Source of the DNA: Chloranthus sessilifolius | Taxonomy: Eukaryota > Streptophyta > Magnoliopsida > Chloranthales > Chloranthaceae | Direction: 5' to 3' | NCBI GenBank assembly: GCA_021018995.1 | Contig: CM037598.1 | Location: 42,400,685-42,464,684 of the forward strand | DNA: 64,000 nt | Part shown: positions 7,361-63,515 of the stretch, in pieces | Position numbering within the stretch: the first letter of the stretch is position 1 | Layout of the letters: every line of letters starts with the position of its first letter | Program-made: the position numbers and the translations under genes | The notes under the pieces: model-generated | The model's input: the letters and a program-made list of their open reading frames with translations, nothing else | What the model was told of the DNA's origin: nothing | Database searches by the model: none

Positions 7361-7604
7361 TTCGCTCGAGTGAGTTCCAAGGTCACTCGAGCGAGTTCAC
7401 ATGGCACACCAAAACTCACTCAAGCGAGTTTTACCAGAACTGTTTTAGCCTGAATTTTCTTAGTGCACTCGCTCGAGCGGGTTTTTCAGAAGGAATCTCG
7501 CTCGAGTGAGTTACAATTCGCTCGAGCAAGTTGGTCCGAACTCTCCTTTTTAAACTTGAAGAATTCTCGCTCGAATAGTTTTCCAATCTCCCTCAAGCGA
7601 GTAT
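7361..7604. repeat. Array of CTCGCTCGAGCGAG palindromes (family G)
   Basis: Eight recognisable copies of the palindrome ACTCGCTCGAGCGAGT, with cores near 7365, 7386, 7419, 7472, 7501, 7521, 7570 and 7592. Several neighbours are 20-22 bp apart. Degenerate copies mostly change CG to TG or CA. On the minus strand the array lies about 600 bp downstream of the TATA box, so it should be in the transcribed leader. Confidence 0.85.
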
Positions 7605-8193
7605 GTTAGGTTCTAAAAATTTTAGAACTCGCTCTTCTTCCCTAATTTCGAAGATAAAAAATCTAATGCATCCATTCACGTACTCTCTACTCGAAGTTCA
7701 TCCTATCTGATCAAATCAATAATCCTACCTTAATTTTCACACATGCAAAGATTTTGGTGATCGATCATAGGGGTATCGGTGTTTGCGCTTCTCACGCATC
7801 CGATCCTCGAAACCCTTGCATGCGACCCATACACACGTAATTCAAGACCTACTTTTCTAAATAAAGACCCATACAATGCGTGACGGTGTTTACCTTCTCA
7901 GATTCACACATGCAGAGTTCACAATCGTCGGTGCCGAGAATTACTCTTACGTCCAATAGTTTGATCTTTCTTTGCTTTGATCATGACGATATCGTGATCG
8001 AAATTCCTTTGCGATCAAAGTGGAGATCGTCTCGAAGCAGAAAGAGAAATCGAGAGAGATCTAATGGCTGAGATCTCTTGAGAAAGGGAATCAAAAGGAG
8101 AAGGAAAATGAAATCTTCTCTCGTTTTTTCTCTCAACGATCTTCAACGAGTTGGCTATTCTAAACTCATGCATAGCTTATGCGTGAGAAGGGG

Positions 8194-8199
8194 TTTATA
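8194..8199 (-). promoter_or_regulatory. TATA box of the G LTR
   Basis: The minus strand reads GTTATAAACCCC, followed by a pyrimidine/purine-rich leader with TTTTCTCTC runs. The position about 330 bp into the LTR is plausible for the U3 promoter. Judged from sequence only. Confidence 0.5.
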
Positions 8200-8525
8200 A
8201 CAAAGGCACTGATTCGGTGTGCAGTCGGCACATCAAACACAGTATATTGGCTTGTAAAATAAAAATAAAAATAAAAGAATGGAAGTCAAGGTCTAATGCA
8301 CTCGACAGGTTTTGATACTAAGACCTTGTGCTTACAAACCCAGTTTTTTAATAGTCGTGCTGTCAAGGAGCCTGTGTAACCTTTTACCCTGTTTAATACC
8401 TATACCTTATTAGAAAGGTACACCTTACAAATTAATACAGTGATTGGTTTCAATACAAGGCGCAGATTGCTCTCGGTCATTGAACACATTACATACTCGG
8501 TGTATTTAATTCGGAATTTCTAGGG

Positions 8526-8559: not shown

Positions 8560-9254
8560 ATCACGGAAGTTCAAAGTTCTTAAGTAGGATACCCTTAAGA
8601 AGGTCTTTGACCACTGTAACCATAGTTAAATCTGTCCCTGGGGTTCCCATTTACCACCAAGTCTTACTCATTGCTCATAAGAAGTTATTCTAGACTACGT
8701 GGGTCACATGTCAAGTTAACCATTGTTGTCATCTACCATTGTCAAAATGTAAAAGCTTACGGTAAACATCACATGTTCAGTTAACCATTGAAATCAAAAT
8801 ATTATGCGATCATGCATTCACAACCATTTACATTACTAATAACCATCAAGCCTAATATTAACATCACTATACTACATCAACAATTTTAACGTGAATAACC
8901 TATCGAGGTAAACATCATTACGAAAGCTAATCCATTCATCAAAAGCTTAACCACATGTCAAATTAAGCTATTCGTTTACACATTAGCATGATAACAAAAG
9001 CTTAACCTATTCATCAAAGTTTAACAAAATTTCACACTTTTATAGATACAAATTCACCATTGTTCAAGGCATCTCAGTGCCATAACCCAAAAGAGGACAA
9101 ATTGTTTACCGATTATTGGATCCATCATCGATCCGCATGCTCACCTGGCTGATCTGTTGGCTACTCCTCATGACATCTTGCTCCAGAATCAGATGCACAT
9201 GTTGTATACCCTGTTGTATACTCCCTTCAAATAGTTATGAATGGGGTGGAGCTG
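8560..9254 (-). other. Internal retroelement sequence without recognised coding
   Basis: AT-rich sequence between the G LTR and the ORF remnant upstream on the minus strand. Short repeats of AGCTTAACC(A/T) and CATCAAAAGCTTAACC type occur at 8750-9020. No recognisable integrase or chromodomain. Confidence 0.4.
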
Positions 9255-9860: not shown

Positions 9861-10230
9861 GGGTTTAATAACCCTAAAACCAATAGCTTTGGTTGTTGAG
9901 AGAGAAGTAAAGAAGAGAGAGAGAAGGAGAGCATAGTTAATGCAAGGAGTAAATGCTAGTTGAGGAAGGGGGATTCGAGCAATAAACGTCGGATTCGATG
10001 CGAGGGATCCGCTAGAAGCAAAGCTGGAACCCTAGCCTTCCAACCACTTGATTTGAAATCAATTGGAGATTGATTCAAGGTAAAATTTTTGTGAATAAAA
10101 TGCATAGATTGTAGAGGTTAAATTGCAGTTAAAAATGGTTTAAATCATAGGATCATGGTTTAGAAAAATAGAGGAAAAAGTGTAGAGAAAGATTGGGAAG
10201 AACAGCTCGAAAGGGGCTGAATCTGGCAAT

Positions 10231-10708
10231 TTCGATTAATCGAAATTGGGTTTCGATTAATCGAAATTGGCCAAGAAGTTGAAAAGTCAGGAAACCTGAT
10301 CTCGATTAATCGAATTGAATTTCGATTAATCGACTTTGGATTTCGATTAATCGATTTGGGTATCGATTAATCAACTGGGAACCTCCAGTGGACCCCAGGG
10401 GGCTGGAGGAAAAGACTTGGGAAAATCGACTAATCGAAATGGGATTTCGATTAATCGATTTCAATTTTTGATTAATCGATTTGGAATCGATTAATCGATT
10501 TTAGGAACTCGATTACTCGAATTGAGAATCGACTTGGCTGAACAGAGAATTTCGATTAATCGAATTAGGATTCGATTAATCGAATGAAAATCTCGATTAA
10601 TCGATTTGAGAATCGATTAATCGATATTGACTTTTGATTAATCGATTTTAGAAATCGATTAATCGAATCAGATTCGATTAATCGATTTTGGAGTTCGATT
10701 AATCGACT
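10231..10708. repeat. Array of 19 TTCGATTAATCGAA palindromes
   Basis: Nineteen copies of the palindrome TCGATTAATCGA, most of them perfect. Starts fall near 10231, 10252, 10301, 10321, 10342, 10362, 10446, 10467, 10486, 10571, 10592, 10612, 10633, 10653, 10672 and 10693, plus degenerate copies near 10425, 10509 and 10548. Within clusters the spacing is 19-21 bp. Flanking bases vary, so this is not a simple tandem duplication. It lies about 370 bp downstream of the TATA-like box and should be transcribed. Confidence 0.92.
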
Positions 10709-12174
10709 GAGATAAATTATGTTAACTTTTGAGTTTGACTTTAAGATTCTTGGAGGGTCTTGGACCTTCTTTATTGCATCCTTAGTGATGTGTTTCACCT
10801 GTTATGTGGTACCATAAGTGGTACGTGTGAACTAATGCACAAGGAGCCACGTGGGACCTTGATGCGTTGAGCAAACAAAGACTTGAGGTAGGGAACACCT
10901 TGAACATGTACTTTATTTTACAAGAGCATGTATGTAGTGATATAGAATTCAAATTCAAATATTTATTGCTTAAGAATTGTGAAAAGTGTATGTGAGTAAC
11001 ACCCATAAGAGTAAGTATAATGAGCCATCCCCAGGGGATGAAGAAGTAAAGAGATAAGAGCATCGTGTGATGTAGTAAATGGATACATCCTGTGGATGTA
11101 TCCAAGATTGAATCATGATTGATAAACGATATAAGATAGCACATTTACACGGTGAATAACTATATGTAAGGCACGATATTTTTGTTATTTGAGGTTTGAT
11201 AGGGTACCCACCGACGTGGCGGGATATCCACGACCCGACTGACAGATATCCGTGACCGATACTGGCCAAAACCGTAGGGCCGGTGAGGCTTATCCGTACA
11301 TAGTAAGTACACCTCAGGGGTGTTGATTTGAGACAAGTGAAACCCCGCCACCAATCCCCAGGGGAAAGGGGCTTGGGTACTATATGGTATTCCCAGGGAA
11401 TACGTTAAAAGTGTCTATATAGATGACGATGAAGGGTACCTCATCGGGGCTCGATGCTATATTGCTCGGGGACTACTTAAGTTGAAAGTTTAAGTTTTGC
11501 TTTAGGCCTTTTCAGCATCATTCATGAATAAACGAAAACATAAGTAATTAACAGTAAAATGAAATGCTTTTTAACTGTTTTCATCAATAACTGCATAGAC
11601 ACATCATGCATGGCATATCATGGAATATATGTGAGTAATAAATTATATGTTCAACTGTGTTTTGTTCCCTATTGAGCTAGGATGTAGCTCACCCTATAGA
11701 CTATACGTCGCAGGTCCACTACTAGCAGCTGCCGAGGCTTCAGGAGACGCTGACCCCGGTGAGTCGGACCTTGCGGCCGGCGAAGAATTGGAGCCACCTC
11801 CTGAGGACTTCTTCTAGAGGACTCCGTTGTGCCACTTTGAGGGCTTTTGAGAGAGATTAGTACGGCTCGGTATGTCAAGCCTTGTTTTGTTTAAATCATG
11901 TATATATTGAGTTAGGATTATTCTTTTGGGACGAACCATCCGTGATGATTGCTATCATCGATGGTTCGGATCGGTTCTCCATTCATGCAGAGGCATGAGG
12001 GTAGAACTGCCTTTTGGAGAATTACTTAATATAGATTTAAATTCCGCAGCTCCTTTATTGTTTCATTTTATGCTTGATATGCTAATGTTCCGTGCTTAGC
12101 TAAGGGGCACGGTCAAGATGATCGTGCTGATGGCACGGGTTTCGGGGTGCCAAAATCTGGGCTGTCACAAGCCG

Positions 12175-13476: not shown

Positions 13477-13740
13477 ATTGTAAATCATGATTGTCTCTTT
13501 TCTACTTTTTCTAGAAAATCGTAAATCATGATTTTCTATCTTTCATAGCTCTCTCTCTCTGGACGATTCTTTGTTTTACAATTCATCACTTTTTCTTCTA
13601 TATCACTTCAGCTTCTTGAACGTCTTCTAAAGAATCGTAAATTATGATTTTTTATTTTATTCTTTATTCACACCACTCAATCATCTTTTCACGATTTTCT
13701 AGCTTTCAGTATATAGCGAATCATCTTTTACGCTTAATCG
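13477..13740. repeat. Cluster of AAATCGTAAATTACGATTT-type palindromes (family H)
   Basis: Degenerate copies include TTGTAAATCATGATTG, AAATCGTAAATCATGATTTT, GAATCGTAAATTATGATTTT and CGATTTTCTAGC. They sit upstream (on the minus strand) of the LTR TATA box. More diverged than the arrays in the other families, so the consensus is tentative. Confidence 0.55.
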
Positions 13741-13904: not shown

Positions 13905-16088
13905 CCCCAAAACTTACGTTTTGCTAGTCCCTAGCAAACAAGGAAATATAAACTGATAACACAAATTAAATGCCACTTTTATAGGGAGCGCGATTGCATT
14001 TAAGAGATGCAACAAGCCTTTAAACCCCTAGGTGATTCCTAGTGGAGGAGTTGTAGTCTCCTGAAGGTTTTCAGTGAAGTTACCTACAAACTTTAAATAT
14101 TTTTGAATTTTTCAAAATATTATTTTTTAAAAATTAAAAATTCTAAACTAATTTTGTACACTAAGTTAATTAAATTGACTAAGTTATCAAATTGTCAACA
14201 CATAGTTTGTTACGATTTTCTAAAATTACCAATCATTTATTCTTACTTTCTATTATAACGGTTATCTTTGATTAAAACTCCCACAATTTCAATTCATAAT
14301 AAGTAGGGAGTGTATGCATCAATGAACAGTTTATTCTTCATAAAATTTTCTAAACTGCAGATTTAGAAAATATTTTTATTCAAAACTCACTATTGACTTA
14401 CTCTCAAGAGGATATCGAAACTTTTTGGGTTCTCTCAATATATTTTTTAGAAAAAATTTAGTCAAAGATACTTGTGAAAATTAATGAATCTCATGGACAA
14501 GATAATCTATTCTATTCATATAATTTCCTATACAATCTATAGTATCGAATATTCATATCTCTACTAGGCTTATGCTTTTGTAAATCATAAATCAGAAAGG
14601 TCTTTCCTTCAACTTGTAATGAGGCTTTGGGTTTCAGAAGGTATCAAAGAAAGGTAGAAGGATTCAAAGTTTTCTGAGAATTTAGCTCTTCTTTCTCCTA
14701 TCTTCTTCTTCTTCTATTCTACTTTAATAAGTAACCATGATTGGATAACTTCTTCCCATTTTTTTTTCCTTTTTTATACATCCCAGTTCTTCAGTTGTAA
14801 AATCATATTTTGCGAATTTTTTTCTTTTCAAAAGCTTTTCGCTAAATCGTATATATATTTTTTTCAAATCGTTTATTTACGATTTTTCTTTCCTTTATCA
14901 TATTCTTTTTATTTCTTCAACTGTACCCTCTTTTCTTAGCATACCCTTATCTATTCTACTTTTACTCCTTCCACTCCCTCTACTGTCCTTCTTTTATATT
15001 CTAAAATCTCAGAAAATATAAGGGTTAAAGGTTGAAAGCTTTGGTAGTACATATGATTAAAAGTTTATCGGATTTTGGTACAAAGAAATTCGATTTAGGC
15101 TTCTAATATGGGTTCAAAAGATCAAATTTATTATGGGATTTTGGCTTTTTTGCTCTGATTTAAATAATATATGACCTTAAATCATCTTTATGATTTACTA
15201 GCATAGATGTCTTATTGCTTTGATATTTCTAATAAATAGTGCTAGACAAAAAATCAGTTTATCATATTCATAGAATATTTTGATTCTAAATTATCAATAT
15301 GAGATTTCATAGCAGTGTAGAAGTTCAATTTTTTTTTGTGATGAATAGAAACAGTCTCTCTGAATAAAAGAGGAAATATGGCTCAAAATCTCGCTGGTTT
15401 ATAATTTTGAAACGATGGTCAAAATTTTATAGTTTAGATCAATCTATTGTTTTAAGCATCCATTCTAATACAGTGTTCAACGAGCTAAGCATGAATTGTA
15501 ACTGTTTTATATTCTAATTATTAAACTTCTACTATAATAAATCATAAGTTTTTTAAGATTTGTAATTTTTTCTATTATAATTCCTATGTACTGATTAACT
15601 TAAAAATTTAATTTTGTTTTTTACAAAAATAAACTACTAAACTAACTATTGATATACTACTTATATTAGACAGATGTTGTGTATCCCCCCCAAACTTAAA
15701 TCGGACAATGCCCTCATTGGCACAAAAATAGGGGACACTTAAAACTATTTTCTAAAAATCATTGATATAACTGATCGTTACTAGATGTGAAAAAAATTCT
15801 GTAAGGAATGTTCCCCCAAACTTGAAGGAAAACAGATCTGTTTGCTTCTCAAAGATATCAATGACAAAAATTAAAGAAATGTTAGTAATACTTACACAGA
15901 AAAAAAAATTAGTCAAAAAGAAAATTTCATATACATTACTAAATATTTACAATAATCAAGAAATTAAAAACTAATTACATAAACGAAAACTTAAGAAAAA
16001 TCTAGACACACAAATTTATACATCACACTAGCAGCAATGTCCGAGATGAAGATATCGTCAATAAAGATTGGTCCAAAATTGTGCTGCC
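13905..16088 (-). other. 3' untranslated region of element H with two PPT-like motifs
   Basis: A terminal PPT at 13905-13915 (minus AAGTTTTGGGG) and a second PPT-like motif at 15685-15701 (minus ATTTAAGTTTGGGGGGG, preceded by GAGGGCATTGTCC). Similar double motifs occur in B. A second cluster of the H palindrome (AAATCGTTTATTTACGATTT, near 14858-14880, and relatives from 14795) lies here. No coding sequence recognised. Confidence 0.55.
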
Positions 16089-16747
16089 CTAAAAAGGTTC
16101 GCCCTCCCTTGAGTAGGTGGGTCCAATAGAAAAGAAAAATGTTAAGAAGGTGGAGAAGGTGAAGATGGAGAAGACTGTTGGTGGTCTGGGGAGGAAGGGA
16201 AAGTTTCGACCGTCGGTTTCAGAATGAGAGAGGATGGGGGATGGTTCCTGGCTGCTTTTGGTCATATTTTTGTAAAACAGTCTCACTAATCTAGGATAGA
16301 CTGGTGTGACTCCTGGCCTTAAGAAATAATTCAGCCCGACATCCTTAAAATATTTAATGGCTTCTCCACCCATTTCCAATTTTTCTAAAGAGTCATTGTT
16401 TACTGCAATTTTGGCTCCCACGATATGGTGTTTTATTGAAGTAGGGAGTCTATCTGTTGGCGTAGCAGAGGACGCTGGCCTTTTTACCTTTATCTAATTT
16501 CGACCCTTTTTAGGGACATACACAGATTCTGTCTCATTTGTGTCTTTAGGATTTTCTCTTCCAACTACCCGAAAGATTTTGACTTCTTCTTGGGTGGGTA
16601 TGCTACTTTTGATTTGGCCTTAAGGGTAGCAGACAGTGCAATACGGTTAATGATTGGGTTGTTATCAAAACTATTACCTTCTTCTTCTTCTTCTTCCTCT
16701 TCTCTTTGTCGCTTGCTTGTCTCATTAGCTATGCTACTACTCTTTTC
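16089..16747 (-). pseudogene. Element H accessory protein (Transposase_32-like), N-terminal part
   Basis: On the minus strand an acceptor (TTTTGTAG) at about 16748 opens a frame with KRQREEEEEEEGNSFDNN and then YPPKKKSKSFG, a basic/acidic NLS-like start. After a few stops, the frame at 16421 gives AIKYFKDVGLNYFLRPGVTP followed by VYPRLVRLFYKNMTK, aligning with VYPRLVKLWYQNLTKK of element B and VFPRLVQLFY of element A. It ends early compared with A and B. A possible 5' UTR intron runs from GTAAGG at 16849-16844 to 16748. The same accessory family as in A, B and C, here decayed. Confidence 0.6.
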
Positions 16748-17085: not shown

Positions 17086-17329
17086 GATAACTTGTTGAGC
17101 CGGTCATCACTTAAGTTTTAACCTAGAATTGTTGGTTGATTCTAGCTTTCAGTAAGTAAGAAATGCAATCGTTATGATTCGGATAGACGTAATGACAATC
17201 AATTGTAAATCCATACGCTTGTTCGTTATAATGTACAATAGGTATAATTTACGGTCTATCATTTTAGGTCGTATTATAATACCTAAAGAAAAAGAGAAAG
17301 AAATAGTTTACATAATTTACAATTGGTGC
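17086..17329 (+). other. Unassigned stretch with an LTR-like start
   Basis: Begins near TGATAACTTGTTGAGCCGGT followed by CATCACTTAAGTTTTAACC, recalling Athila LTR starts. It separates the gag and accessory parts of H and may be an LTR scrap or deletion junction. Confidence 0.3.
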
Positions 17330-17890
17330 TACGGATGAGTCGGTAGCTCTACGATCCAAGAGGTCTTTATATTTGATTTTGGGGCGGCAATGTCTCTCCC
17401 AAGAACACTTGTCCTCAGGGATTATTCACTGGCTACCCAGGGAATTGACCACTCTCCCTTTTGGCCACTAGAGAAGCTAGCTGGCCTATATGGCTTTCTA
17501 GCTTCGAAATAGATTGCATGTGTGAATTAAGTACTTGAGAGAATTGAGCAAGCTGGTGTAAGTCTTTCGAGTACTGATACAACTGTTGCTATAAATCCCA
17601 GATGATTTGAACAACTATGGCATCAGGTGCATTGCTCTATGGTCTAAATTCGGGATGCACGGCTGACAATTGAGGTATTTGTTGGAAAATTTGAGTATGG
17701 GGAAATTTGGGCTGCACAGCTGTCGGTGTCAGTTGTGCTCCTCCTGTGGAACCATAATTAAATCTAGGGTGGTTCCTTCATGACGAGTTATAGGCGTTCC
17801 CATAGTCTCCCCTTTGAAAAGCCATTACTTGTTTATTTTCCGCTACCTCCTGGTATGGTGGCGTAGTTAGCTTTTTAGTAAAATTATGAG
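17330..17890 (-). pseudogene. Element H gag, C-terminal fragment
   Basis: Minus-strand reading contains HMQSISKLESHIGQLASLVA-like sequence (frames change) followed by KRESGQFPG and PVNNP. This matches the Athila gag tail, comparable with SIKKIEDYLGQLSNALTKRE...LPSQPL.NP in element B. Several stops and frame changes. The 5' side is interrupted by insertion of element A at 17908/17909. Confidence 0.65.
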
Positions 17891-18227: not shown

Positions 18228-18910
18228 TTATCTCGCGCAGTCACAAGTGTGCCCTGCATTGTTGAAGTTTGCAGTAAAGTCTCCTCGTGCAGCTGATACA
18301 TGCAGCACAAAGGAACTCACGAGGAACTCACGCACTTAGTGAAGGAGTGGTCTCAGTGAGTTACTTCGCGCAGTAGTCGCGCACCTCTTATGCTCTCAAC
18401 ACTTAAAGTCTTCGCGAAGTTCTCACGCACTATAACCTTTAGGAATCTAACTCGCGATGCCCTCGTGAGGATCAAGCCTCACATAGCCGCGCACATAGTC
18501 TCGCGAGATCAATTTACACTAAAGAATTTAAGAAAGCTCGCACAACTTTCGAGTAGTTCAAGGGGAGAGAGAGCTCTAGAAATCCCCTCGCACAGCTCTC
18601 GCGCGCATAAAAGCCTAAAGCCTTCTGCGTGAGCTGTGCTACCCAATTCACAAGGAGCCGAGCGAGATTGAAAGTCATCCATGTGAGATCCTCATGACAA
18701 GAAGAACCTGAAGCTCTACTACGCGAGCAGAGCCAAAGCAATATAAACTCTTCCTCGCGAGTGCATTAAAAGCCAGAGCAGCTGTGCGACCAATTAAAGG
18801 CCTTCTGCGTGAGTGATAAACCTTCCAAGCCAAGTTTGACCTCGCGAACACTCTGCTATCTGTGCGACTGAATTAATGAACCAAAGTCAGCCTTGCAAAG
18901 CTCGGGCTCT
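18228..18910. repeat. Array of CTCGCGAG / CTCGCGCAG motifs in the A LTR
   Basis: About twenty degenerate copies, for example TCTCGCGCAG near 18230, TTCGCGAAG near 18412, TCTCGCGAGA near 18500, CTCGCGCGC near 18596, CCTCGCGAG near 18752 and CCTCGCGAAC near 18840. Many variants show CG changed to TG or CA (CTCACGCAC, CTCGTGAGG). The array ends about 180 bp upstream of the LTR TATA box. The same motif recurs before the accessory ORFs of A and C. Confidence 0.85.
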
Positions 18911-20642: not shown

Positions 20643-20942
20643 TATTGATCTTTTTAGTAGACCTAAGTTGAATTATATTTTAGTCTAGAAAATTCTTTGT
20701 AGCTGTGCCTTAAATTGAATAAAAAGTACTGTTGATTTTTGTGGAATTTTTACAGAATTGGATAATAGCAGTAGGGAAAAGCTAGAGCTGCAGCTGGAGT
20801 TTAGCTAGCTCTGTTTGCACTTCTTTTGTCCTAAATCTCAGTCCATTTGTATTGAATTCCTTGTCATTAGTTTAGTTGTAAATTTTGTTTGCAAAGTTTT
20901 TATGTGCTGTGAGCATTTTCTTTAGCTGCTGATTCTGTATGT

Positions 20943-23028
20943 ATGTTTGGTAGAAGGTCCCTTAATCCTAACTTGGAACCTGAGGTTGAAAGGGTCCTTA
21001 GACTGAGAAACACCACACCAGCCCCTACTGTTGAAACTGAGCCAACTGTCATAGCTGAGAGGCAAAGAACTCTGAAGGAATACAATGTACCTAGGGATTA
21101 CGCATCTACCTTTTGCATACAATTCCCTTCAGTTGAGGAAAATTATGAAATTAAGTCCTCCACCATTAACATGCTGCCATCTTTTCATGGGCTCAGTAAG
21201 GAAGATCCTTACAAGCACATTGATCAATTCTTGGCACTTTACACCACATTTAACATTGCTGGCCTGGGACCTGAAGCCACTAAACTTAGACTTTTTCCTT
21301 TTTCCCTAAAGGACAAAGCCAACACCTGGCCCTCACAGCTCCCAACCAATAGCATCCAGACATGGAGTGACCTCCAAAGCTAATTTTTGGCTAAATTCTT
21401 TTCCATGAATAAAACTAGTCAGATGAGGACAAACATATTATCATTTACTCAGTCCTCAACTGAAGATTTTTATGAGGCATGGGAGAGATTTTAAGAAATA
21501 TTAAAACAATGACCCCACAACCAAATTCCACAGTGGCAACTTGTGCGAGTATTTTACTAAGGAAATTATGAAATTAAGTCCTCAGTGGCAACTGAAGATT
21601 TTTATGTGCATACAATTCCCTTAAGTTGAGGGAAATTATGAAATTAAGTCTACCATTAACATGCTATCATCTTTTCATGGGCTCAGTAAGGAAGATCCTT
21701 ATAAGTACATTGATCAATTCTTGACACTTTGCACCACATTTAACATTGCTAGCCTGGGACCTGAAGCCACTAAACTTAGACTTTTTCCTTTTTCCCTAAA
21801 GGACAGAGCCAGCACCTGACTCTCAAAGCTCCCAACCAATAGCATCCAGACATGGAGTGACCTCCAAAGCCAATTTTTGGCTAAATTCTTTTCCATGAAT
21901 AAGACTAGTTAGATGAGGACAAACATATTATCATTTACTCAGTCCTCAACTGAAGATTTTTATGAGGCATGGGAGAGATTTCAAGAAATGTTAAAACAAT
22001 GCTCCCACCACCAAATTCCACAGTGGCAACTTGTGCGAGTATTTTATTAAAGAATTAATCCCAAGAGTAGGGACATGGTGGATGCCTCATGTGGGGGTAG
22101 CTACCTCCACAAGACAGCTGATGAGGCATGGGAGTTGTTTGACATTATTGGTGAGAATTTCATGTAGCAGGAGTCACTGTCTCACAATGACAGCCAGGCC
22201 CCAACGAAGTTGGTGAAAGAATCCACCCTTAGAGGTGGAATGTATGAGGTTAAGGTGCAGAGTGAATTAGAAAGGAAGGTGGACAATCTGAGTTTAAAGT
22301 TTGATAAATTGATGAATGTAATGTAGCCTAGGATGGCTGCACAAGTGGAAGAGGCATGTCTGATATGCCAATATCTCACACATTCACTTCAAGAATATCC
22401 ATCAGCCAACTAATTCCTTGATTTAGTTATGGAGCATGCCAATGCTGCCCAAGCATATGGGTAGTAATCTGCTGGGTACACATGGAGAAACCACCCAAAT
22501 CTGAGGTGGAGATAAGACACATACCAACAACTCCAGCAGCAGTAGTTGGCAGCCCCATACAGACCTCAGCATCAGTTCAACCAAGGATATGCACCAAGGG
22601 AGAATTTTCAATTGCCTGCCGCATAGCCCAATCAGTTGATCTTGCCCCCACAGTAGCCCAGATCCTCTTCCTTTGAAGAGAAAATACTGGCATCAATGCA
22701 AAATTTGGGAAACTTGGTAAAAACTGTGAACTCTCATGGGCAAAGCATTAAAAAAATAGAGGACCAGCTGGGTCAAATTTGTAATGCTTTAAATAAGAGA
22801 GAGGAGGGCAAGTTGCCTAGTCAATCCTTGGCCAACCCTAAAGGGCAGTATATGATTGGAGAAGGCTCCTCTACCCATAAAAAGGCTAATGCAATCACTA
22901 CCCTAAGGAGAGGTAGGGTGGTTGATAATTTAGTGGGCAGGGCAGCTGAGGAGGCCATGGAGAGTGAAAATGAAAGAAATATAAGTATTGAAGAGCCAAT
23001 GAATTCATCCCCGACTGTAGAGCAGTAA
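20943..23028 (+). pseudogene. gag: Element A gag (Athila type), broken
   Basis: Start ATG at 20943 gives MFGRRSLNPNLEPEVERVLR, matching MFGRRTLQPQIVPLNPEVER of B. The capsid-like region includes FPSVEENYEIKSSTINMLPS and GLSKEDPYKHIDQFLALY. A stop interrupts it at 21381. A 440-bp segment is then tandemly duplicated (21114-21557 and 21607-22049). A zinc-knuckle-like CLICQYLTHSLQEY at about 22356 has lost its last Cys to Tyr. The tail at 22696-23028 carries QSIKKIEDQLGQICNALNKR. Several stops and frame changes make it non-functional. Confidence 0.82.
21114..22049 (+). repeat. Tandem duplication of ~440 bp within A gag
   Basis: Copy 1 (about 21114-21557) and copy 2 (about 21607-22049) both run from TGCATACAATTCCCTT to GTGGCAACTTGTGCGAGTAT and are nearly identical. 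The linker between them is a scramble of gag pieces. Confined to this element; B has a single copy. Confidence 0.8.
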
Positions 23029-23382
23029 GGATAAAATAAAGGGACTGATGTTGAGCCCCAACAACAAACAATAGATGAAGAAAAGAGAAAAAAGCAAAAA
23101 TTTGACCACGATATTATTAGGCATGCAGCTGTGGCACCAGCAGTCCCACAGCTGTCATTTCCTCATGCACTTGCTGGCTCATCTCCTTTTGATAAGGGGA
23201 ATGCGCATATGGAGGAAATGCTAGAGACCTTCAAGTAGGTCAAAATTAATTTGCCATTACTTGATGCTATAAAACAGGTTCCTGCCTATGCCAAATTCTT
23301 GGAGGACCTCTGTACACAGAAAAGAAAAGCAAGGGTGTAGCTGCCCAAAAAGGTTTTTATTGTTGAATATGTTGAATCAGTT
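23029..23382 (+). pseudogene. Gag-protease linker of element A
   Basis: Frames encode LDAIKQVPAYAKFLEDLCT, which matches the LLDAIKQVPTYAKFLKELCT segment preceding the protease in B. Interrupted by TAG codons at the former Gln/Trp positions. Confidence 0.6.
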
Positions 23383-23903: not shown

Positions 23904-24068
23904 GATAATGTTGCTGAAAGCCTAAAAAATATTTGGAGTGTGGTGGAGATGGAGGCCTAAGCTCTTATGACAGAAGACAACACCAAAATAGACTCTTCTG
24001 TGGGCCTAGTGCAGCATTTCAGCTAGAAACCTACATTGCTGCCCCTTCCTTAAACCACCAAGGCACCT

Positions 24069-25160: not shown

Positions 25161-25275
25161 GATGTGCCATTTGAATTTTTTGCTGAGTGCCTTAAGGCCT
25201 TGTGAGGTCTTAAAAAAGTGCCTTACCACTGCTCTTGTAATCTAGGCCCCAGATTACTCACTCCCCTTTGAACTA

Positions 25276-28213: not shown

Positions 28214-28228
28214 AATAAGAGAGAAAGC

Positions 28229-28728: not shown

Positions 28729-28806
28729 AGCCTTAAGAGTAGTCCAATCTCTGGTTTCAATTGGATTCTTCTACCATAAACCTCAGGATCAGATGAAGTC
28801 TATAGG

Positions 28807-50500: not shown

Positions 50501-50671
50501 TAGCGTGTATATTATACACGCTAAGCCAATTTTTTACTAAAATTAGCCTAGTGTGCATGTTATGCACGTTAGGCAAAATTGGTTTATTCCTCCAGAGCAG
50601 GCCCTAGATTTCCTTATTTTCTTAGGGAATACTGTTCCCAAGCTTAGCATGTATAATATACACGCTAAGCT
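50501..50671. repeat. Palindromes of the TAGCGTGTATA family in the D 5' LTR
   Basis: At 50501-50523 two 11-bp arms (TAGCGTGTATA / TATACACGCTA) flank one base: a perfect 23-bp palindrome. Diverged copies lie at about 50548-50573 and 50642-50671. Upstream of the LTR TATA box. Confidence 0.9.
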
Positions 50672-52694: not shown

Positions 52695-52880
52695 CATTGT
52701 CTGAAAAACACTTAGCGTGTATAAAATACACACTCATTCAAAAATACCCAGAAAATGCCTAGAATGTATATTATACACACTATACCAAAAATGTCCAAAA
52801 AATGCCTAGCATGTATAATATACACGCTAGACCAAAACTGCCCAAAAAATGCCTAGCGTATATAATATGAACTCTAGACA
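52695..52880. repeat. TAGCGTGTATA palindrome array between the two antisense genes
   Basis: Four copies: TTAGCGTGTATAAAATACAC near 52711, CCTAGAATGTATATTATACA near 52757, CCTAGCATGTATAATATACA near 52806 and CCTAGCGTATATAATATGAA near 52852. About 46-49 bp apart, separated by AAAA(T/A)(A/T)(C)CC(C/A)AAAAATG linkers. Confidence 0.85.
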
Positions 52881-53368: not shown

Positions 53369-55753
53369 TCAGAAAAGGAAAAACAAAAGCTGCTCCAAGT
53401 CTTCAAGAGTTCCCTCCTCCATCAGCGCAAAGTCCTCTGATACGTCTGGACATCCCCCACCCGTGACCATGCCTGAGACAACCAACTAAGTAGTGAATGC
53501 GACTCCTCCTCATGAGCGCGCTGAAAGCATCACACCAGAAAGATTAGTTAAAGGAAAGCATATGGCAACAAAGAAACAGATAGAGCAAACCAACATCATA
53601 CTTACCACTTCAACTCCTTGAAGGTCAGCGATACGACGGTAATACTCCACCTGCTGAACAACTAACTCATATACCTGGAAGGGGGGAAGGGAGAAGTTAC
53701 CAGTGCAGAAGAAGAGATAAGAGCAAGCATGTCCCAAAAAAATAAAAAAAAATTGGGAAAAGAACTCACCCCTGGGATCAATTCGAGGGGAGGTACTCTC
53801 ATCGCCTCGGTAGAGAGGCAAGCACGCTCAGTCATGTCGGCACCCAAATCTAAGAGGAACCTAATGTCAAGATGCTTAAAAGTCCCCTAAGTCCATGTAG
53901 TAGATGTCCGTGAGGGCCTCGCACCGGAAGTCACTGAGGGTCCGACAACTGGCACATCTGAAGGACTCGAATCTACTCCCACACCAGGATCCACTCTCGC
54001 CTCGAACAAAGGAGATGAAGAAATTCAGTCAGTAAAGCAGAAACATGGTAGTCGAAAAACAAACCCACAATCAAGGGAAAGAAAGAAAAAGGTACTTGGG
54101 ATTGTGGACCTCTGAACCCTAAAAAATTGGCACTAGGCACAAAACGTGGGACGATGGACTAATAGGGGAGAGATTCATACAACAATTGATACCCCCCATG
54201 CTCAAAAAGACCATCAGTAGGAATCCCATGTCGTAGGAGCCTTCCTGTAAGCTCCTCGACCATACCCTTTAGTGCCATAATGTCCTTAGGAAGACCGAAT
54301 GACACGGTGAAGTAATCTCGACACTGATGCACTACCCTCTCCCCCAAATAGTAGGTTCAGACCCAAGAATCATAGAAGAAGACGACGCAACGATTGATAA
54401 ATAGTCATGATTGGCCAATTGCGGCGCGGTCTAAGAAGGGAGAACCAACATAAAGATCAAATACAATCTGCCCATGAAAGGAGAATCCCATTAGTCAAGC
54501 AATACAATCAAGAGTCAATAATTTAACCAATGAAGGGAGGGGGGTGTTAAACCTGCTCTGGAATCATCAAATTGAATTGGGACCTCAGACCCAGTTCTAA
54601 ATGCTTGATCCTTATGCCAGCAACTCATAAGAGGTTACGTGTACTCATCAGAAAAGAGGAGGGCGCAGCCAGGTTGAAAGTGCAAATACCCCTAAACTTG
54701 AAAAGATGGACAATTAAGAAAATATGTCAAATCAAAGATAAAAAGTGCCAGAAATGATGAACCAAGAGGGACGATAGAGCAATACCAACGGGTACCACAA
54801 TCACAGGCCAAAAGCCAAGGATAGAAGCAACCTCCCAAACTGAACCTTTAGTCAAGCTGTCCATCAGCACCACATACCTGACTCCGCCCCAATCGAAATG
54901 GTGCATCCTCCTAGTTCTCCATCAAGAAGAGGAGGGACAGTGCGACACGACCACCACTGGCATTGGCAAGGATCATTTTGCCCAGAACAAAAAGAAGCAC
55001 GATGCGAGCAAGCTTCAGGGCGCTCTCAGGCTCGACGACAATATCCATATCAGGCTGGTCCAGATCAACCAACTCATCGGCCTCGAACAGATCTGCCAAC
55101 TAAGACAACTTGAACTCGGAGCCAATCATATGGTTGGAGGGGGGTAGTCCCCAATAAATTGGATCACCTCTTCATGTTCAGGAATGCGAGGACAGACCAC
55201 TGGTACCCCTCCCATCCCAATCCCCGTGATCATGGACCAATCAACAGGAGTGATGGTCATCTTAGCCATTGACATGCAGAAGATCATCGTCTCGGGACAT
55301 AGCCTCTCCACCAAGGCCTTCACGTAGGCCGAATCACCCCTCATAGCAGGGCAAGATAAGAAGTCCCCAAAGCCGGCCTGAGCTAGAAGGAACCTCACGA
55401 CATGAGGGATATGGATGTAAAAGTGCTGGAGGTCAAACTAGCCTCGATGGAACATGACCAGAGGCAAGGACTGCATCAAAAGAACGAGGAATGTCAGATC
55501 CTAGAACAAAGAAGCACGAACAAAAGGAAGCAACCAAGGAATATAGTTTTTTACTTGGTTGGTAATCCTAAAGTTGGAAATGTGGGTGTACTTCTGATGG
55601 AGAGACCCACTGTGGGCTGCCTCGCCCTGCATCTTGTACCAACAACGAGGGGAGCGCTGCACTTGAATGAGGTGCTCACCCCTTATACCAAAGATCATGT
55701 CAGGGCTACCCTCCCGGTCTTGGTCCTCCTCACTTGAGTGACCACGTGGCATC
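53369..55753 (-). pseudogene. Antisense plant-mobile-domain (PMD)-like gene of element D
   Basis: From ATG 55752 (minus): MPRGHSSEEDQDREGSPDMI, IRGEHLIQVQRSPRCWYKMQ, GEAAHSGSLHQKYTHISNFR; donor GTAAAA near 55555; next exon MFHRG, FDLQHFYIHIPHVVRFLLAQ, AMRGDSAYVKALVERLCPET, MAKMTITPVDWSMITGIGMG, QPDMDIVVEPESALKLARIV, LLFVLGKMILANASGGRVAL; then HFDWGGVRYVVLMDSLTKGS and WEVASILGFWPVIV; later exons WERVVHQCRDYFTVSFGLPK and SEDFALMEEGTLEDLEQLLF with a TGA at 53369. This follows the PMD scheme (ALVERW.PET / MTIT..DV..L.GL / YL....LF.D.SG). A 5' UTR intron (56456-55754) ends TTTTCAG directly before the ATG. A few stops (for example in HRG*FDL) suggest recent decay. Confidence 0.7.
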
Positions 55754-56666: not shown

Positions 56667-56860
56667 CTAGCGTGTATAATATTCACGTTAGGCTTATTTT
56701 TCCCAGATTTGGCCTAGCATGTATAATATACATGCTAAGCATATTTTTCCTGAAATTGGCCTAGCACGTATGATATACGCACAAGGCTTACGTTTCCTCC
56801 AAGCGGTTGTTCTTTTCACCTAGGTTAAGCCTAGCAGGCATGTTGTGCACGCCAGATGTT
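56667..56860. repeat. TAGCGTGTATA palindrome array at the antisense PMD promoter
   Basis: Four copies: CCTAGCGTGTATAATATTCA near 56667, CCTAGCATGTATAATATACA near 56712, CCTAGCACGTATGATATACG near 56760 and CCTAGCAGGCATGTTGTGCA near 56829. The first three are 45-48 bp apart. Ends about 200 bp upstream (minus strand) of the predicted donor. Confidence 0.85.
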
Positions 56861-57564: not shown

Positions 57565-58924
57565 TAGACACCACAATTTGGCCCAATGCCCAATCAACAC
57601 ATACTTTGAGCAAGGTGTACCCCAAAACTTTTGAAAGCATCTCCCAAACCTTTATGAATCAACCCTAGCCTTCCCCGACCCATTAGAAACCCTCCGGGGA
57701 CCGGTTCGAATCCTCCTAAGCAGTGGATAGAAAGAGGATTTTCAAAGCTTACATAGACATATGTGGGAGCTAAGGCCTATACCAGTAGAATGATGATGCT
57801 CCCAGCTTTCCAACGAGCTCAGAATCGCCTCAATCCGAGTCGTATATAATAAATTATGGAAAATTGAAAATGGTGAAGAAATGTATGAAATTACACTAGC
57901 GTGTATATTATACATGCTAGGCCAATTTTTGATCACGCTAGGAAAAATTGGCTACTTCCTCGAGAATTGAGCTCCAGAGCAGGCCGCAGACTTCCCTAAT
58001 TTCTAAGGGAACATTGTTCCCAAGCCTAGCATGTATAATATACACGTTAAGCTTAGGAATAGTGTTTTTTGGGAAAATGTCTAGATTTCGAATTTGGGTT
58101 TGACTTGTTCACCACCCCAAAGTCCGGGGTGGGTTTCTTTAGGACTGTTACACCCCCATTAGTTCTATTTACAACTCTTTAGTCATTTAAAGACCCACCC
58201 AATCATCTACCATTAAACCCATTTCCCACCTATCAAAGCTCCCAAAAACCTAGAAATCCTTGAATCCCTATTACCTAATTGCTAACCCAATTAGCCCTTT
58301 AACCCTTCACTAATACCATCCAACTCTATAAATAGAGTCTCCCCCCCCCTCCCCCCCCCCTTGCTTAAGGGATTGAAAAATTTCCAAAAGATAGAAAATC
58401 CTAGAGAATTCCCTCTTGCCTTTTGAGCACTAAACCTCAAAAATTCTAGAACTGAGTTCACCCTTCTAGATCCCATTTTCCATTACCAAACCCTTAGATT
58501 TGGCTAGAACTAGGCCTTAGCTTTCTTCTCCTACCTTCTAGCTTCCAACCCTTAGAGGTTCAAACCCATTCTTCAACCCATTTGCTATCGGAAGTTCACT
58601 GGAAGTGCATTAATGCGAAGGTCCATAGAGGTGCTACATGGACCCGAGAGCTCCGACTCTCCCATCTATTTCTCTACCTTCTTTTGTTTTCCTTCCATCC
58701 TAGAATTTAAGTCATTACGCTGCCAAAATTTTGGTGATTGTGAGGGGCTCAAATAGGATCGTAGTGCCTTCAGGCAAGGAGGTGTGTCGTTCTTTATTTT
58801 TATACTTCGGTGGTTACGTATTGATTTTTGAGGTATCCTAGGTCATAAAAAGCTCCGGATGGCAACTTCATTCTTTAGAGAGTGTGCATCGTCGCAACGG
58901 ACCCGCAAAGTCCACGGTTGCACA
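57565..58924 (+). repeat. 3' LTR of element D (1360 bp)
   Basis: Starts TGTAGACACCACAATTTGGC, a typical Tat LTR start; ends AAGTCCACGGTTGCACA. Palindromes at about 57897-57922 and 58021-58052; TATA at 58324; a C-run (58338-58362). Shorter than the 5' copy near its start. Confidence 0.8.
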
Positions 58925-59600
58925 GGCTTCAAATATGGGTTCTAGAGGTAAATTGTCAGGGATTTTAGCTTTTTGGCTCAGACTAATCAAAAGATGACAT
59001 CCTCTAAAACTAATCACTTGTAATGATGCCATGTTGTGTCAACACTTATAATAAACAGTTCTAGAAAAATTGATAACACAATTGTAGTCTTGGGTTCAAA
59101 TAGAAAATATGATATTTTAGTTAAAACAGTTAAGAAGTTCAAGGAAACTTGGAAATATATAAGCATTACAGTCTCTCTCAATGAAAGGATTAGGCCCCAA
59201 AAGATCACAGGATAAATTATTTCTGAAACTATATTCTAAATTTTGCAATTCAAAGCAATAAATAGTTTCAAAGACTCAGTTTTGATACAAGTGTGCAAAT
59301 GGACAAAACATGAATATTAACTGCATCCTATAGGTGATTTCGAATTTGTTTTAGGATGACGGTGCTATGTTTGGAATAAAATTTTATCTAAAATTTACTC
59401 ACATAAAATGGTTAACTAAAAACAAACCTAAATACAGAAATAAGCACTAAAACAAAACATAACAAAAAGAAATTTGATTTATACACAAAAATTTGTACAA
59501 TGTAAGGGAAAAGGACTACACAAAAAATAATGTAAAGACATCCTAACTAACTACAGGTGCATATCTAGACATTCTAATTATCTGCTGGCTCAGTCTTGAC
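58925..59600 (-). other. 3' untranslated region of element C
   Basis: Starts (minus) with GTAGTTAGTTAGGATG as in A after its ORF (GTAGTTAGTTAGATT), then diverges. The PPT-like motif found in A, B, E and H is not seen here. Confidence 0.5.
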
Positions 59601-62600
59601 TTAGGGTCCTTTTCCTTTTTCTTTCTCTTTCTCCATAGTAGCAGCAATTGTACTAGTAGGAGGGGTGGTCTCAGCTGCCTGTGTAGGATCTCTGTCAGTT
59701 AGTTCAGCACCACTTCTTTCAAAAATTTCTACCTTCTTTTCAGTAAGCATAGTTCTAGTTTCATAGAGTTCCCTGGTGGCCTTTACGACCACTTTGAAGG
59801 CAGCTAACCTTTTTTCTAGACCATCTGCTCTCAGCTTCTCAGTTGCTATAGTATGCTTTTCTGCTTCATATTGAATCAAGATTCTACCCCACCCTTTTAA
59901 TATATCCAACAGTTGAACTCTGTGATCCAACTCCATGCGACTAATTTTTTCTTCATAGGGCTGCCTGATGGAGGTTCTAATGGTAGCTTTGCCTTTAATG
60001 ATATCCTTTTTCAAGTATGTGTTCTTTTGTATGACATGGAGGAGAGTGGAGTATGGAGGTATGAAAAAGGTTGAGGCAGGTAGAATGGATTGCTCATGAC
60101 TGAAGGAAGGGCCAGCCAGCAAGGGAGAGGGGATGGATGATGGCATCGGTGGGATGGAAGTAGATGGAATGAGTTGAGGGAATTCCAATTCAGGCTCAGG
60201 TTGGGGTTCTATTTGTGTTGGTGTTGAGGAGGTTGGTAGTAAGTCCTCCACATCTGTTGCAGCATCAGAGGTTGCTGCAACAGGTGGGATATCAGGTAGG
60301 GGAATAATGGGCAACTGGATAGGGTCAGGTTCAGTTCTAGTTCAGGGTCAGTTTGTGTGAAGGCATTGGTAAATATAGTTGGAGGGAATTCTGGGATAGT
60401 TGTAATGTGTGTAATAGCAGGTGTGGTGACAGCTGAGGTTATGGGTTAGGGAGAAAGAGGTGGAGTAGGTAAATGGGTTAGTGGAGGGATAGGCTGCTGT
60501 TGTGATGTTTGGGTTAAAAGTGACAAGGTGACTTGGATGGCTTGTAAGATGGTTTAGATTGAGGCCTGGTTTTGGAGGGTGGAGGTCATGGCTTGAAGGT
60601 TGGCCACAATGGATGATGGGGTTTGAGAGTTGGGCAACACTTGGGCTTGAAGGGAGAGCAATAGGTTGAAGATTTGGGATAGGAAATCAGGGGTGATGGG
60701 TGGAAGTGGTTGAAATGGGGAAGTGGGTGCATGAGTGAAGGCAGTTGGCTGTGGTGATGGAGGTGGAGGGGCAAATGGATGGGGGTGTGGTGAATCTGGA
60801 GGAGGGGTGAAATGAGAAGGGTGACAGGAGTTTGGGAGAGGGGTAAACTCATAGTTGATGTCCCTTATGATAGAGGACATCATGGCTGAATATCCCTCTT
60901 CTGAAAAAGGGTTTTGGTCATGGGTAGGTGAAAATGGGATGGATTGGCCTAAAGGCTCACAGGTAATAGTTTCAAAAGGTGTGGAGGTTTCAATGGGATG
61001 AGAGGGGATAACTGGTGAGATGTGAGGGATTTCAAGGGTGTGAGGCTCTGGGTCAGAGGCTTGGGCTGTTGAGGGTGGTGGCAGGTCAATGGTTGGGTCT
61101 GGGATAGTTGTGGTTTCAAGAATTAGGATGGATTGGGAGATATAGGCGGGTTGGGGCTCCTTGTGGACTTTGGTTAATATGCTTTTCTTTTTATAGGTGG
61201 TTTGCATAGGTGAGCATGTTGGAGGTACTGGTATGGTTTCATCAAATGTGGTATGGATGGATGGGCTTGGTGTGGCTTATGTGATCGGTGGGGGTACAGT
61301 TAAGGTAGCAGTAGGTTTGGTGGCTGTGATAGTTGATAGAATTGGCTGGGGTGAGGGTAATGGGACTATGGGAGGTTGTGAAGCCGAGGTTAAGGGAGTA
61401 GTGACTGGCATGGAAGTTGAAGGGGTGGCTGGTGAGGTAATGGCTTTAGATGTGGAGGTGGTGCTGGCTGGCACACTTGAATGGGCTGCCAGATATAGGG
61501 CAGCAGAGCTTGCAGCCACAGAGGCAGTAACAGGAGCACATCAACAGTTGCTTCTTGAATTATAGGGGCTGCCAGAGCTAAAAAATCTGCCTTCTTCTTC
61601 CTCTTCTCAATTAGAGTACCACTGATCCCCCATTGTTTCTTTCCATATTTTCTGAGGGCCAAGGTGATGGTCTTCTCATCCATTTGAAATTGGTACCCCC
61701 CAACTTCCGTAAAGCTGTAATGAGCCTGCACTAGGGAATTGAGTGGGGCTTCTTCTTGGTCTTCACCTTTTCGTGAATATCTTTTATCCCCTCAAAGATC
61801 AACTTGGCCGCTTCCAAGTAGTGAATCATGTGGAATGAGTAAAGTGCACCCGCAATAGGAGACCTCCTCTCCTGCTCATGGCCATAGCAATACACATTCT
61901 TCCTCAACACCCCATCCATAAATCTAAGGTTTGTGTGCAGATCTTCTTCCTAATTGAAACTCCTGAAGCTGTGACCCCTCCAGTCAGCTCCTTGGCTATC
62001 TCTGGGATGGTGGCTATTAAAGGGGGACCCAAGCCACATTTAGGGATATACTTGGCTGGTATGCTAAGTATTTTTGCTATTGCAGCTTGATTGAAAAGCA
62101 TTTCAAATTTGTTAATCAACACTAGCAATGTTGGATTCCCATCATCCCCAGTCTTTATTATGATATTCTGATAAAACATCTGCACTAGTCTAGGGAAGAC
62201 TAGCTGCAGTGGGGGCCTCAATAAGGGCAGTAGAGTTGCCTTGGTTATGTACTCAATGGAGGCTGATGTCTCTGGTGTCTCCTCAAAATAAACTTTATCA
62301 AAAATTGTTTCAGCCTCCAGCTTAATGGCAGCCACCCACTCAGAGGGGGTTCTAAGGTATTTAGTATCCTCCTCCTTTCCAACTGCAACCTCAGGGACCT
62401 CTTGGGCCACTTCCTTGCCCTTTTTCTATTTCTTCTTGGATTTTTCAGGGTTTTTGGTCGGTGGGTGCTCTCTGGCCCTTTTCTTGGGGGAAGCTTTCTT
62501 CTTAGCACCTTAGGCACCAGTGGCCACAGCCTTGCCCTTCTTCACTGGGGCTGCCTTCTTCTCATTTTGTTCAATTTGGGGCTCCGCAGTGGGTGCAGTT

Positions 62601-62728
62601 ACCACAGAGGTCCCCACAATGGAGGTCTCTACAATCCTTACTAATTTTTGAGTTGCCCCAGGGGTTCCAGTGTGTGGAGGGTTGAGCATGGCAGCCACTG
62701 TGTCAAAAAATTTCGAACCCGTGGCCAT
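59601..62728 (-). pseudogene. Element C accessory protein (Transposase_32-like), broken
   Basis: Start MATGSKFFDTVAAMLNPPHT at 62728; basic NLS-like region AKKKASPKKRAREHPPTKNP and EKSKKK; domain ATLLPLLRPPLQLVFPRLVQ, YIPKCGLGPPLIATIPEIAK, MDGVLRKNVYCYGHEQERRS, AKLIFEGIKDIHEKVK and KKQWGISGTLIEKRKKK; a Pro/Ser/Thr-rich linker (about 61520-60560); a coiled-coil-like C-terminus (EAEKHTIATEKLRADGLEKR) ending EKEKEKGKGP at 59601. Stops at about 62513 and 62426 and frame changes near 61960, 61730, 61500 and 60300-60550. Closest relative here is A. The coiled coil would allow dimers, which would suit palindromic sites, but DNA binding is only inferred. Confidence 0.72.
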
Positions 62729-63116
62729 GGCTACTCAACTTCTCCAAATTAGGGCTTACAACTCTCAGATTATGCAATGCACACTTCACGAATGATATTG
62801 CACCCAAAGTCTTCCCTTCTTAACTCTAACTTATTATTCAAACAAAGCAACAAAGAGAGAGCAAGAGATCTTACCAATTTGCAGCTAGGGTTCCACTTCA
62901 AATGTTGCACAACGGTTCGAATACCCCCAAACCTAGGTCAAAGTGATCAGGAGGTGATGGGGAGTAAACTGGTAGGAGGAAACTTTCTAAGGTGGAGTGG
63001 ATTAGGTTGTAGGGAAGAGAGAAGGGAGAGAGAAGCTCAGTTTTGCTCAGAGGAGGCTAGGGCAAAGAGAGATATAATGGAGAGAATGGAGAAATCACAG
63101 GGTTTATAAGGCTGAT
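62729..63116 (-). promoter_or_regulatory. Putative promoter and leader of the C accessory ORF
   Basis: On the minus strand GATCAGCCTTATAAACCCTG is TATA-like, followed by a CTCTCTTTGCCCTAG leader and a donor (TTGGTAAGATC) at 62874. GTGTGCATTGCATAATCTGA before the ATG is conserved with A. Confidence 0.5.
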
Positions 63117-63515
63117 CTCGTGCCTCGCGCGGCTGTCTCTAGGTTCTCACGAAGTAGATTTCTTATGCACTTAACATCCAACCTCATGAGAAGTATTGTC
63201 GTGAAGAAGAACAGAGCCTCGCGAGGACAGAATTAGAGGCTCTATGTGCCTCGCGAGGTCATTCATGAGTGAATCTGGCCTTAACGCGAGGCGCCTTACA
63301 TCCTCACTAGAGTAGCAAGCTTAAAATCTGAGTCTCAGGCACCTCGCGAGGTAGAAAATCTGTGAATTATGTTCTTCGCAGAGTTCCATATTGCTGCCAA
63401 GCTAGAGCCTCACAAGGCTCACTATCAGCCTTCAGCAAGTGCCTTTTGCTCGCGAAGCTCTCGCGCGATACAAAATTTTCATCAGAACTTTGTGAGAAAG
63501 CTTCAAGTGGCTCGC
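63117..63515. repeat. Internal CTCGCGAG array of element C
   Basis: Copies include GCCTCGCGCG near 63123, GCCTCGCGAGGAC near 63221, GCCTCGCGAGGTC near 63249, ACCTCGCGAGGT near 63341, TTGCTCGCGAAG near 63446, CTCTCGCGCG near 63461 and GCTCGCGAGTG near 63512. The position relative to the accessory ORF is the same as in A. Confidence 0.87.

Follow-up and report, generated by a model that had tools for sequence, protein, structure and literature searches.

Helically phased CpG palindrome arrays at the promoters of nested long terminal repeat retroelements in Chloranthus sessilifolius: candidate operators for element-encoded proteins

TNPA of En/Spm (CACTA) is an element protein that reads short subterminal repeats of its own element. 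The VANC proteins of the Arabidopsis VANDAL elements, which are Mu-like DNA transposons, are element proteins associated with a dense, short non-coding motif that varies from one related family to the next, with joint turnover of motif and protein; the VANC21 motif, YAGTATTAY, is given in the passages available as non-palindromic, of one orientation and often in tandem repeats (PMC5735166). In foamy viruses a single element-encoded transactivator, Tas, serves both the long terminal repeat (LTR) and an internal promoter, according to passages of two papers (PMC8670036, PMC4929722). Plant retroelements carry accessory open reading frames (ORFs) between pol and the 3' LTR, such as Retand TRP28, Grande gene23 and the Athila aORFs (PMC11963269, PMC7264820, PMC11728184, PMC12844716). 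Excerpts from these papers predict DNA binding or a nuclear location for some of them, give the Grande gene its own promoter and suggest a regulatory role (PMC11963269, PMC7264820, PMC11728184); an Athila aORF of sunflower matches Transposase_32 and is predicted to be nuclear (PMC11728184), and one source asks whether, in Tork and Athila, ORFs of this kind influence epigenetic state (PMC12844716). Here we describe arrays of short CpG palindromes at the LTR and accessory-gene promoters of LTR elements that lie nested in one another in a 64,000-nt stretch (the window) of the 2.17-Gb genome of Chloranthus sessilifolius (GCA_021018995.1, CM037598.1:42,400,685-42,464,684), and consider whether each array could be an operator for a protein of the element itself.

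As in the VANC system, the motifs of this locus are dense, non-coding and family-specific. Unlike VANC motifs they are palindromic, helically phased and, in family B, present in both orientations, and they belong to retroelement LTR and accessory promoters rather than to DNA transposons. TNPA motifs, unlike these arrays, mark the ends of DNA transposons and have a transposition function; the window itself holds a comparison case, a CACTA (En/Spm)-like terminus at 5475-5783 with CACTACAAAAAA on the minus strand at 5771 and subterminal GGAGACGGC/GCCGTCTCC repeats, and also a weak Transposase_24 match at 2-349. As with Tas, the same candidate response element stands at the LTR and the internal promoter of one element. 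Foamy virus, unlike the plant elements here, is an animal retrovirus; we know of no relation between Tas and the plant accessory proteins, and to our knowledge the foamy system has been described without phased palindrome arrays that turn over family by family. The circuit proposed below would work like that of Tas and resembles VANC, and is assigned to neither system. The Retand and Grande genes are antisense, whereas the Athila-type gene here is sense, resembles Transposase_32 in family J and has a paired motif; the passages of the papers cited above name no target motif for the Retand, Grande or Athila accessory ORFs. A further likeness is to the plant mobile domain (PMD) proteins MAIN and MAIL1, whose domain resembles the accessory-like ORFs of families D and E; their dependent genes are host genes, unlike the targets considered here, and share a 'DOWN' promoter motif, direct DNA binding being left open in the part of the paper available (PMC7156037). 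Literature searches, which returned papers in part, turned up no description naming phased palindrome arrays of this type.

The initial annotation of the window had described one palindrome per family in arrays beside nearly every retroelement promoter. When motifs in those intervals were counted against 100 dinucleotide shuffles, the arrays of G, the solo LTR, A, C, B and D stood far above the shuffled sequences, and those of E and H were weak (Table 1). As an observation the arrays hold up well, and for most families the case is stronger than first stated. For B the array was upheld (11, 5 and 9 sites in the 5' LTR, internal and 3' LTR intervals against at most 0.19); its motif is a pseudo-palindrome, CCTATCGAAA, rather than the true palindrome proposed. 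For E the proposed palindrome GACCGATCGGTC is a poorer fit than GACCGATCGAAA and is not claimed, and neither is H as a full case. An 8-mer palindrome scan of 94 kb (the window and 30 kb around it) agreed with the counts: 51 of the 446 scored scan windows exceeded the best shuffled one, and these took in G, the solo LTR, A, B, C, E, the neighbouring elements J and I, the LTR of C and the CACTA end, with D represented by one array only, caught via its edge TAGGCCTA. With 6-mers, 21 of 637 windows were enriched as against 1 in a single shuffled pass. Four of the 51 windows lie outside all described arrays (GGTTAACC at 8601 and 8701, ACAATTGT at 17101 and CGAATTCG at 35801), in unassigned palindrome-rich spans at 8601-9200, 17101-17600 and 35801-36300, respectively; the 6-mer scan added AAGCTT (8701) and AGATCT (29101-29401).

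That a motif recurs at the LTR and at internal promoters of its family was found for A, B, C and D, whereas E has a single array, its LTR not being recognised, and H has none at its accessory ORF. A and C, which are related elements (73-76%), have the motif CTCGCGAG in common, and it was predicted beforehand that the LTR of C, outside the window, should carry it. The C LTR array right of the window (82550-83088) has six CTCGCGAG sites with at most one mismatch, two of them exact. The arrays had also been placed upstream of TATA-like boxes in most families. This held for the LTRs of A (TATATA at 19085) and B (28229), where the boxes found by script are 3' of the arrays; at the B accessory promoter one motif site falls just past the TATATA at 32769, and in the A accessory promoter (38700-38830) the script found no such box.

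A 30-base 3' internal signature, common to B and J and nearly so to H, gave 24,658 matches genome-wide (at most two mismatches; control 0), and we surveyed the LTRs of the first 30 loci listed, all on C1. TCGA was enriched in 14 LTRs, CGCG in 11 and GCGC in one (L046, a GC-repeat-like locus among the 11). None of the 30 was enriched in any of 13 other 4-nt palindromes, and enrichment in the adjoining 1.5 kb of internal sequence was seen at one locus. In 23 of the 30 loci the LTR start was recognised, with heads alike and arrays different. Families that have the same internal signature and similar LTR heads carry different motifs, which bears out the motif turnover of the initial annotation; its claim that motifs differ completely between families does not hold, as most TCGA and CGCG families share an outer frame. 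That frame is AACCT-N-TCGA-N-AGGTT at most TCGA loci, and CGCG loci lean to AACCTCGCGAGGTT. The arms depart from it in J, L065 and G, and the core departs in the ACGGACGTCCGT genes described below. The motif code would then be one frame held in common, on which core and arms turn over.

Pairing of LTR and accessory promoter extends beyond the window. Upstream DNA of three loci, chosen for strong or new LTR motifs, was obtained blind, and both assessable loci carried the motif of their own LTR: L063 has a CCTGTCGAGAGG array right after the integrase frame, the accessory gene lying beyond the stretch examined, and L065 has a CTGCTCGAGCAG array just 5' of its accessory frames. The third (L074, upstream of L049) sits within another LTR copy and was not counted. 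With A, B, C and D, this makes L063 and L065 elements in which LTR and internal promoter share a motif. Left of the window, J has CTTTTCGAAAAG-type sites immediately 5' of its accessory frame, and the motif is clear in L052, its family mate by LTR head (L052 clusters with L042), so that J is consistent with the pairing, its LTR being judged mainly from the family mate. Transposase_32 had 13,856 candidates genome-wide, and all 150 scored matches were over the cut-off. Four genes were picked among these 150, and an array lay 5' of the gene in all three that could be assessed, being ACGGACGTCCGT, a new motif, twice (the element type of these genes is not established) and CTCGCGAG once. The fourth gene (L075), fused to copia-type reverse transcriptase (RT) coding sequence, was not counted. 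Many of the 150 listed matches have an open frame of 395 aa and may mark a young family.

At six accessory promoters (A, B, C, J, L063 and L065) the CpG-palindrome profiles correlate at 0.58-0.81 with the LTR of their own family, L052 replacing the LTR of J. The own-pairing sum was equalled or beaten by 2 of 720 permutations, these being itself and the swap of the sisters A and C, which scored slightly higher. LTR weight matrices fitted their own accessory promoter best in five of eight rows, that of A being best with its sister C. Plant LTRs carry repeated boxes for host factors, for example BII of Tnt1, and such pairing could also arise if host transcription factors bound the arrays, different families using different factors and the same factor co-expressing accessory promoter and LTR. 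Palindromes and phasing suit any dimeric factor, and the motifs of B and L063 overlap. However, five motif classes occur in Athila-type elements (A/C, B, J, L063 and L065) and a sixth beside Transposase_32 genes, so that this explanation needs many factors with related sites in one genome; moreover, the motifs have been amplified along with their families and stand 5' of all three assessable Transposase_32 genes. We consider host factors unlikely as the main readers, although they are the most serious alternative to a protein of the element.

The spacing of the sites carries a physical signature. Arrays of the window by themselves (B, G, A/C and E) supply 54 spacings, whose peak period is 10.50 bp; taken singly, G (p 0.047) and A/C (p 0.063) are borderline. 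Thirteen pooled arrays gave 152 TCGA spacings, and a scan from 6 to 20 bp put the top period at 10.50 with a mean cosine of 0.60, a phasing that none of 20,000 jitters equalled. Individually, 10 of the 13 fell below 0.02, the misses being L043 and L072 (four spacings each) and G; the 13 are not independent cases because some are related (L070 is B-like and L048 resembles L063). All of the 16 other 4-mers that had 60 or more spacings scored lower, the highest being CGAG (0.47) and ACCT (0.40), both parts of the motif, and then AAAG (0.39). Genome-wide, CGGACGTCCG formed 2,806 pairs 18-48 bp apart (control 0), and among the 50 listed, which like those that follow are related copies and not independent, the distances were 20-23, 33, 40-41 and 44 bp (cosine 0.69 versus a null maximum of 0.43). 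The solo-LTR core TCGATTAATCGA formed 131,234 such pairs (control 0); of the 78 listed, 60 were at 19-21 bp and 11 at 41-42 bp (cosine 0.75 versus 0.38). The solo-LTR family is by this count very abundant. The phasing points to a reader that is a protein sitting on one face of double-stranded B-DNA.

Protein on one helix face argues against two further explanations. One is that the palindromes act in RNA, in dimerisation, packaging or kissing loops. By eye, the arrays of the solo LTR and G seem to lie within the transcribed leader, as a role in RNA would have it, but phasing to the helix is a feature of double-stranded DNA and the LTR arrays of A and B are 5' of the TATA-like box, which leaves this role very improbable. 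The other is neutral, minisatellite-like expansion of palindromes in LTRs and 3' internal regions, the phasing being a by-product of unit length. Tandem repeats are known from plant LTR elements; those of Retand are family-specific, their function being given as unknown in the excerpt available (PMC11963269), and the D unit is fixed at 47 bp, while spacing in the solo LTR is near-constant, with linkers partly conserved in both. Other observations speak against plain expansion. In B, A, C and G the sites keep their motif, but their linkers are for the most part unrelated (in the site alignment the core is conserved and linker bases of B, A and C mostly have less than 0.7 bits per position), and the TCGA-family spacings are mixed multiples of about 10.5 (20-22, 31-33, 42-43 and 52-54 bp), not one unit. 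The motif also appears again elsewhere in the same element, not contiguous with the first array, and the only 4-nt palindromes enriched in the surveyed LTRs were TCGA, CGCG and, at a single GC-rich locus, GCGC. Neutral expansion is thus rated as quite improbable, if less so than a role in RNA.

Given a protein reader, the coding parts of the elements are of interest (Table 1). The lineage name Athila is applied here provisionally, by resemblance. B, a complete Athila-like element enclosed by A, has LTRs at 27193-29351 and 35901-38100 with 91.7% identity; gag (Retrotrans_gag, 2.6e-6, at 29600-30169) and a protease-like region are followed by the internal array and then by the accessory gene. 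The space between protease region and internal array is too short for RT and integrase, so B looks non-autonomous, though it has kept accessory gene and arrays, and for this reason the proposal that each family encodes a reader need not mean that every copy is autonomous. The B accessory ORF had no relatives among 1881 candidates, no Pfam match up to E=10 and nothing convincing among PDB sequences (best E=0.22). A has a Ty3-type gag-pol with RNase H (PF17917, 2.5e-32) and PF17921 (7e-12) over the cut-off and the integrase core rve (PF00665, 8.7e-6) below it. Its accessory region is 73-76% identical to pieces of C on the opposite strand (63106-59454). The C product has a conserved N-terminal part (61907-62425, 33% identical to the B accessory protein), a proline-rich stretch and a C-terminal coiled coil by eye. 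The open 355-aa accessory frame of J matched PF20167 (Transposase_32) at E=2.6e-8 and 34.4 bits, below the curated cut-off of 45, and continues with a proline-rich stretch and a C-terminal part that is coiled coil by eye; the accessory proteins of B, C and H gave no PF20167 match. Those of B and J have a basic N terminus resembling a nuclear localisation signal (NLS), by eye. In D, the LTRs (about 50.2-51.7 and 57.6-58.9 kb) are 82% alike across the main piece, and neither its PMD-like ORF nor that of E, both fragments, reached the curated cut-off for PF10536.

Table 1 Features of the window. Counts are motifs in the interval versus shuffled sequence. TSD, target-site duplication; PBS, primer-binding site; PPT, polypurine tract.
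Feature	Position	Strand	Basis
G array, CTCGCTCGAGCGAG, 8 sites	7361-7604	not set	shuffle count (7 vs 0.01), site alignment
Solo-LTR array, TTCGATTAATCGAA, 19 sites mostly 19-22 bp apart	10227-10710	+	shuffle count (19 vs 0.76), site alignment
H candidate array (weak)	13477-13740	-	2 vs 0, at 5 mismatches of 19
H second candidate array (weak, one good site)	14795-14880	not set	1 vs 0.01, 5 mismatches of 19
H accessory-like ORF	16092-16493	-	ORF translation
A 5' LTR array, CTCGCGAG	18228-18910	+	7 vs 0.53
A gag-pol, Ty3 type, broken downstream by B	20913-26628	+	PF17917, PF17921, PF00665
Element B, complete Athila-like LTR element, TSD ACCTG	27195-38102	+	LTR pair; TSD, PBS-like, PPT-like by eye
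B 5' LTR array, 17 sites CCTATCGAAA (at most 2 mismatches), both orientations	27470-28019	+	shuffle count (11 vs 0.19), site alignment
B internal array, 5' of accessory gene	32549-32786	+	5 vs 0.19
B accessory ORF, 261 aa, basic NLS-like N terminus (by eye)	33098-33883	+	ORF translation
B 3' LTR array	36178-36738	+	9 vs 0.15
A internal array, CTCGCGAG, directly 5' of A accessory region	38310-38775	+	7 vs 0.36
A accessory gene region, decayed frames, C-like	38789-42643	+	identity to C
E antisense PMD-like remnant	45615-45947	-	PF10536 E=0.003, 17.2 bits (45777-45947), below 34.9
E array (weak), GACCGATCGAAA type	47518-47791	not set	2 vs 0.11
D LTR array, TAGCGTGTATAATATACACGCTA	50501-50671	+	3 vs 0
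D internal array, TAGCGTGTATAATATACACGCTA, period 47	52695-52880	+	4 vs 0.01
D antisense ORF, PMD-like	55129-55437	-	PF10536 E=2.1e-7, 30.9 bits, curated cut-off 34.9
D array about 1.2 kb 5' of antisense PMD-like ORF	56667-56860	-	3 vs 0
D second LTR array	57897-58052	+	2 vs 0
C accessory gene region	59454-63106	-	identity to A, ORF translation
C internal array, CTCGCGAG	63117-63515	-	6 vs 0.37

Around these elements, I is nested in C to the right of the window (67705-77769), with LTRs 93.6% identical and CTCGCG-type arrays in both. A tandem repeat of about 120-bp units (44300-44787) lies 3' of the A accessory region, and an inverted repeat of about 150 bp, with arms 82% identical, is at 2279-2675. 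A first set of genome-wide RT matches was not used, the eight loci looked at being chromovirus-like or long interspersed nuclear elements by eye.

The reading that we favour, and hold to be somewhat better than an even bet, is that the arrays serve as operators, each for a nuclear protein that its own element encodes. In the Athila-type families the likeliest reader would be the 'env-like'/Transposase_32 protein, which has a basic N terminus and is the product of the accessory gene lying 3' of pol and before the 3' LTR; in D and E it would be a PMD-type protein. It would bind the CpG-containing palindrome as a symmetric unit, probably as a dimer, and sites at multiples of about 10.5 bp would set successive dimers on one helix face, where binding could be cooperative. 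An operator at both the LTR and the promoter of the accessory gene itself would form a feedback loop, in which a little protein may activate, or clear silencing from, the genomic promoter and its own gene. If a palindrome arm or core changed and the protein then changed, families would separate.

Several observations weigh against this reading. No accessory gene is assigned to the solo LTR or to G, and no array was found upstream of the H accessory-like ORF. The 3' LTR of J itself has degenerate related sites by eye, with TCGA cores too few for the filter. Five of the 30 surveyed LTRs (L042, L047, L053, L057 and L068) are enriched in neither TCGA nor CGCG, and the top palindrome of L043, GCAGCTGC, has no CpG. 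Phasing is weaker in the CGCG families (63 spacings, cosine 0.25, p=0.0015), and G gave p=0.37 in the pooled crude count. The B and L063 matrices fit each other's accessory promoter as well as or better than their own (z 4.2 versus 4.1 and 5.6 versus 4.9), so that motif specificity is clear between classes and does not separate B from L063. In 30 B-family LTRs, the two of the window included, motifs and linkers diverge alike outside CpG (0.043 versus 0.047), and selection is therefore not visible in these copies; the concentration of CpG in B motifs (35 of 48 CpG columns, the motifs making up 170 of 551 columns) is suggestive only. Structure models (predicted local distance difference test scores of 38 and 35) were unusable and no DNA-binding fold was derived from them. 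An element-encoded reader nevertheless is the best available interpretation, unproven at the protein step.

The role of accessory genes in plant LTR elements is called unknown, or a regulatory role is speculated, in the passages available (PMC7264820, PMC11963269, PMC12844716). A paired cis-element with a physical binding signature makes their function directly testable. The chances seem to us about equal for and against the broader proposal that the 'env-like' (Transposase_32) genes encode not envelope but dimeric, sequence-specific DNA-binding regulators, which would recognise a CpG palindrome of their family on one side of the helix, at the LTR as well as at their own promoter, and so define mutually incompatible groups within one genome, among elements that, by the signature count, number tens of thousands of copies. 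If this is true, foamy-virus Tas and VANC would have their equivalent in plant retroelements, and families would escape cross-activation by altering a short code. That code would be readable from sequence alone, so that elements could be grouped by it and cross-activating families predicted.

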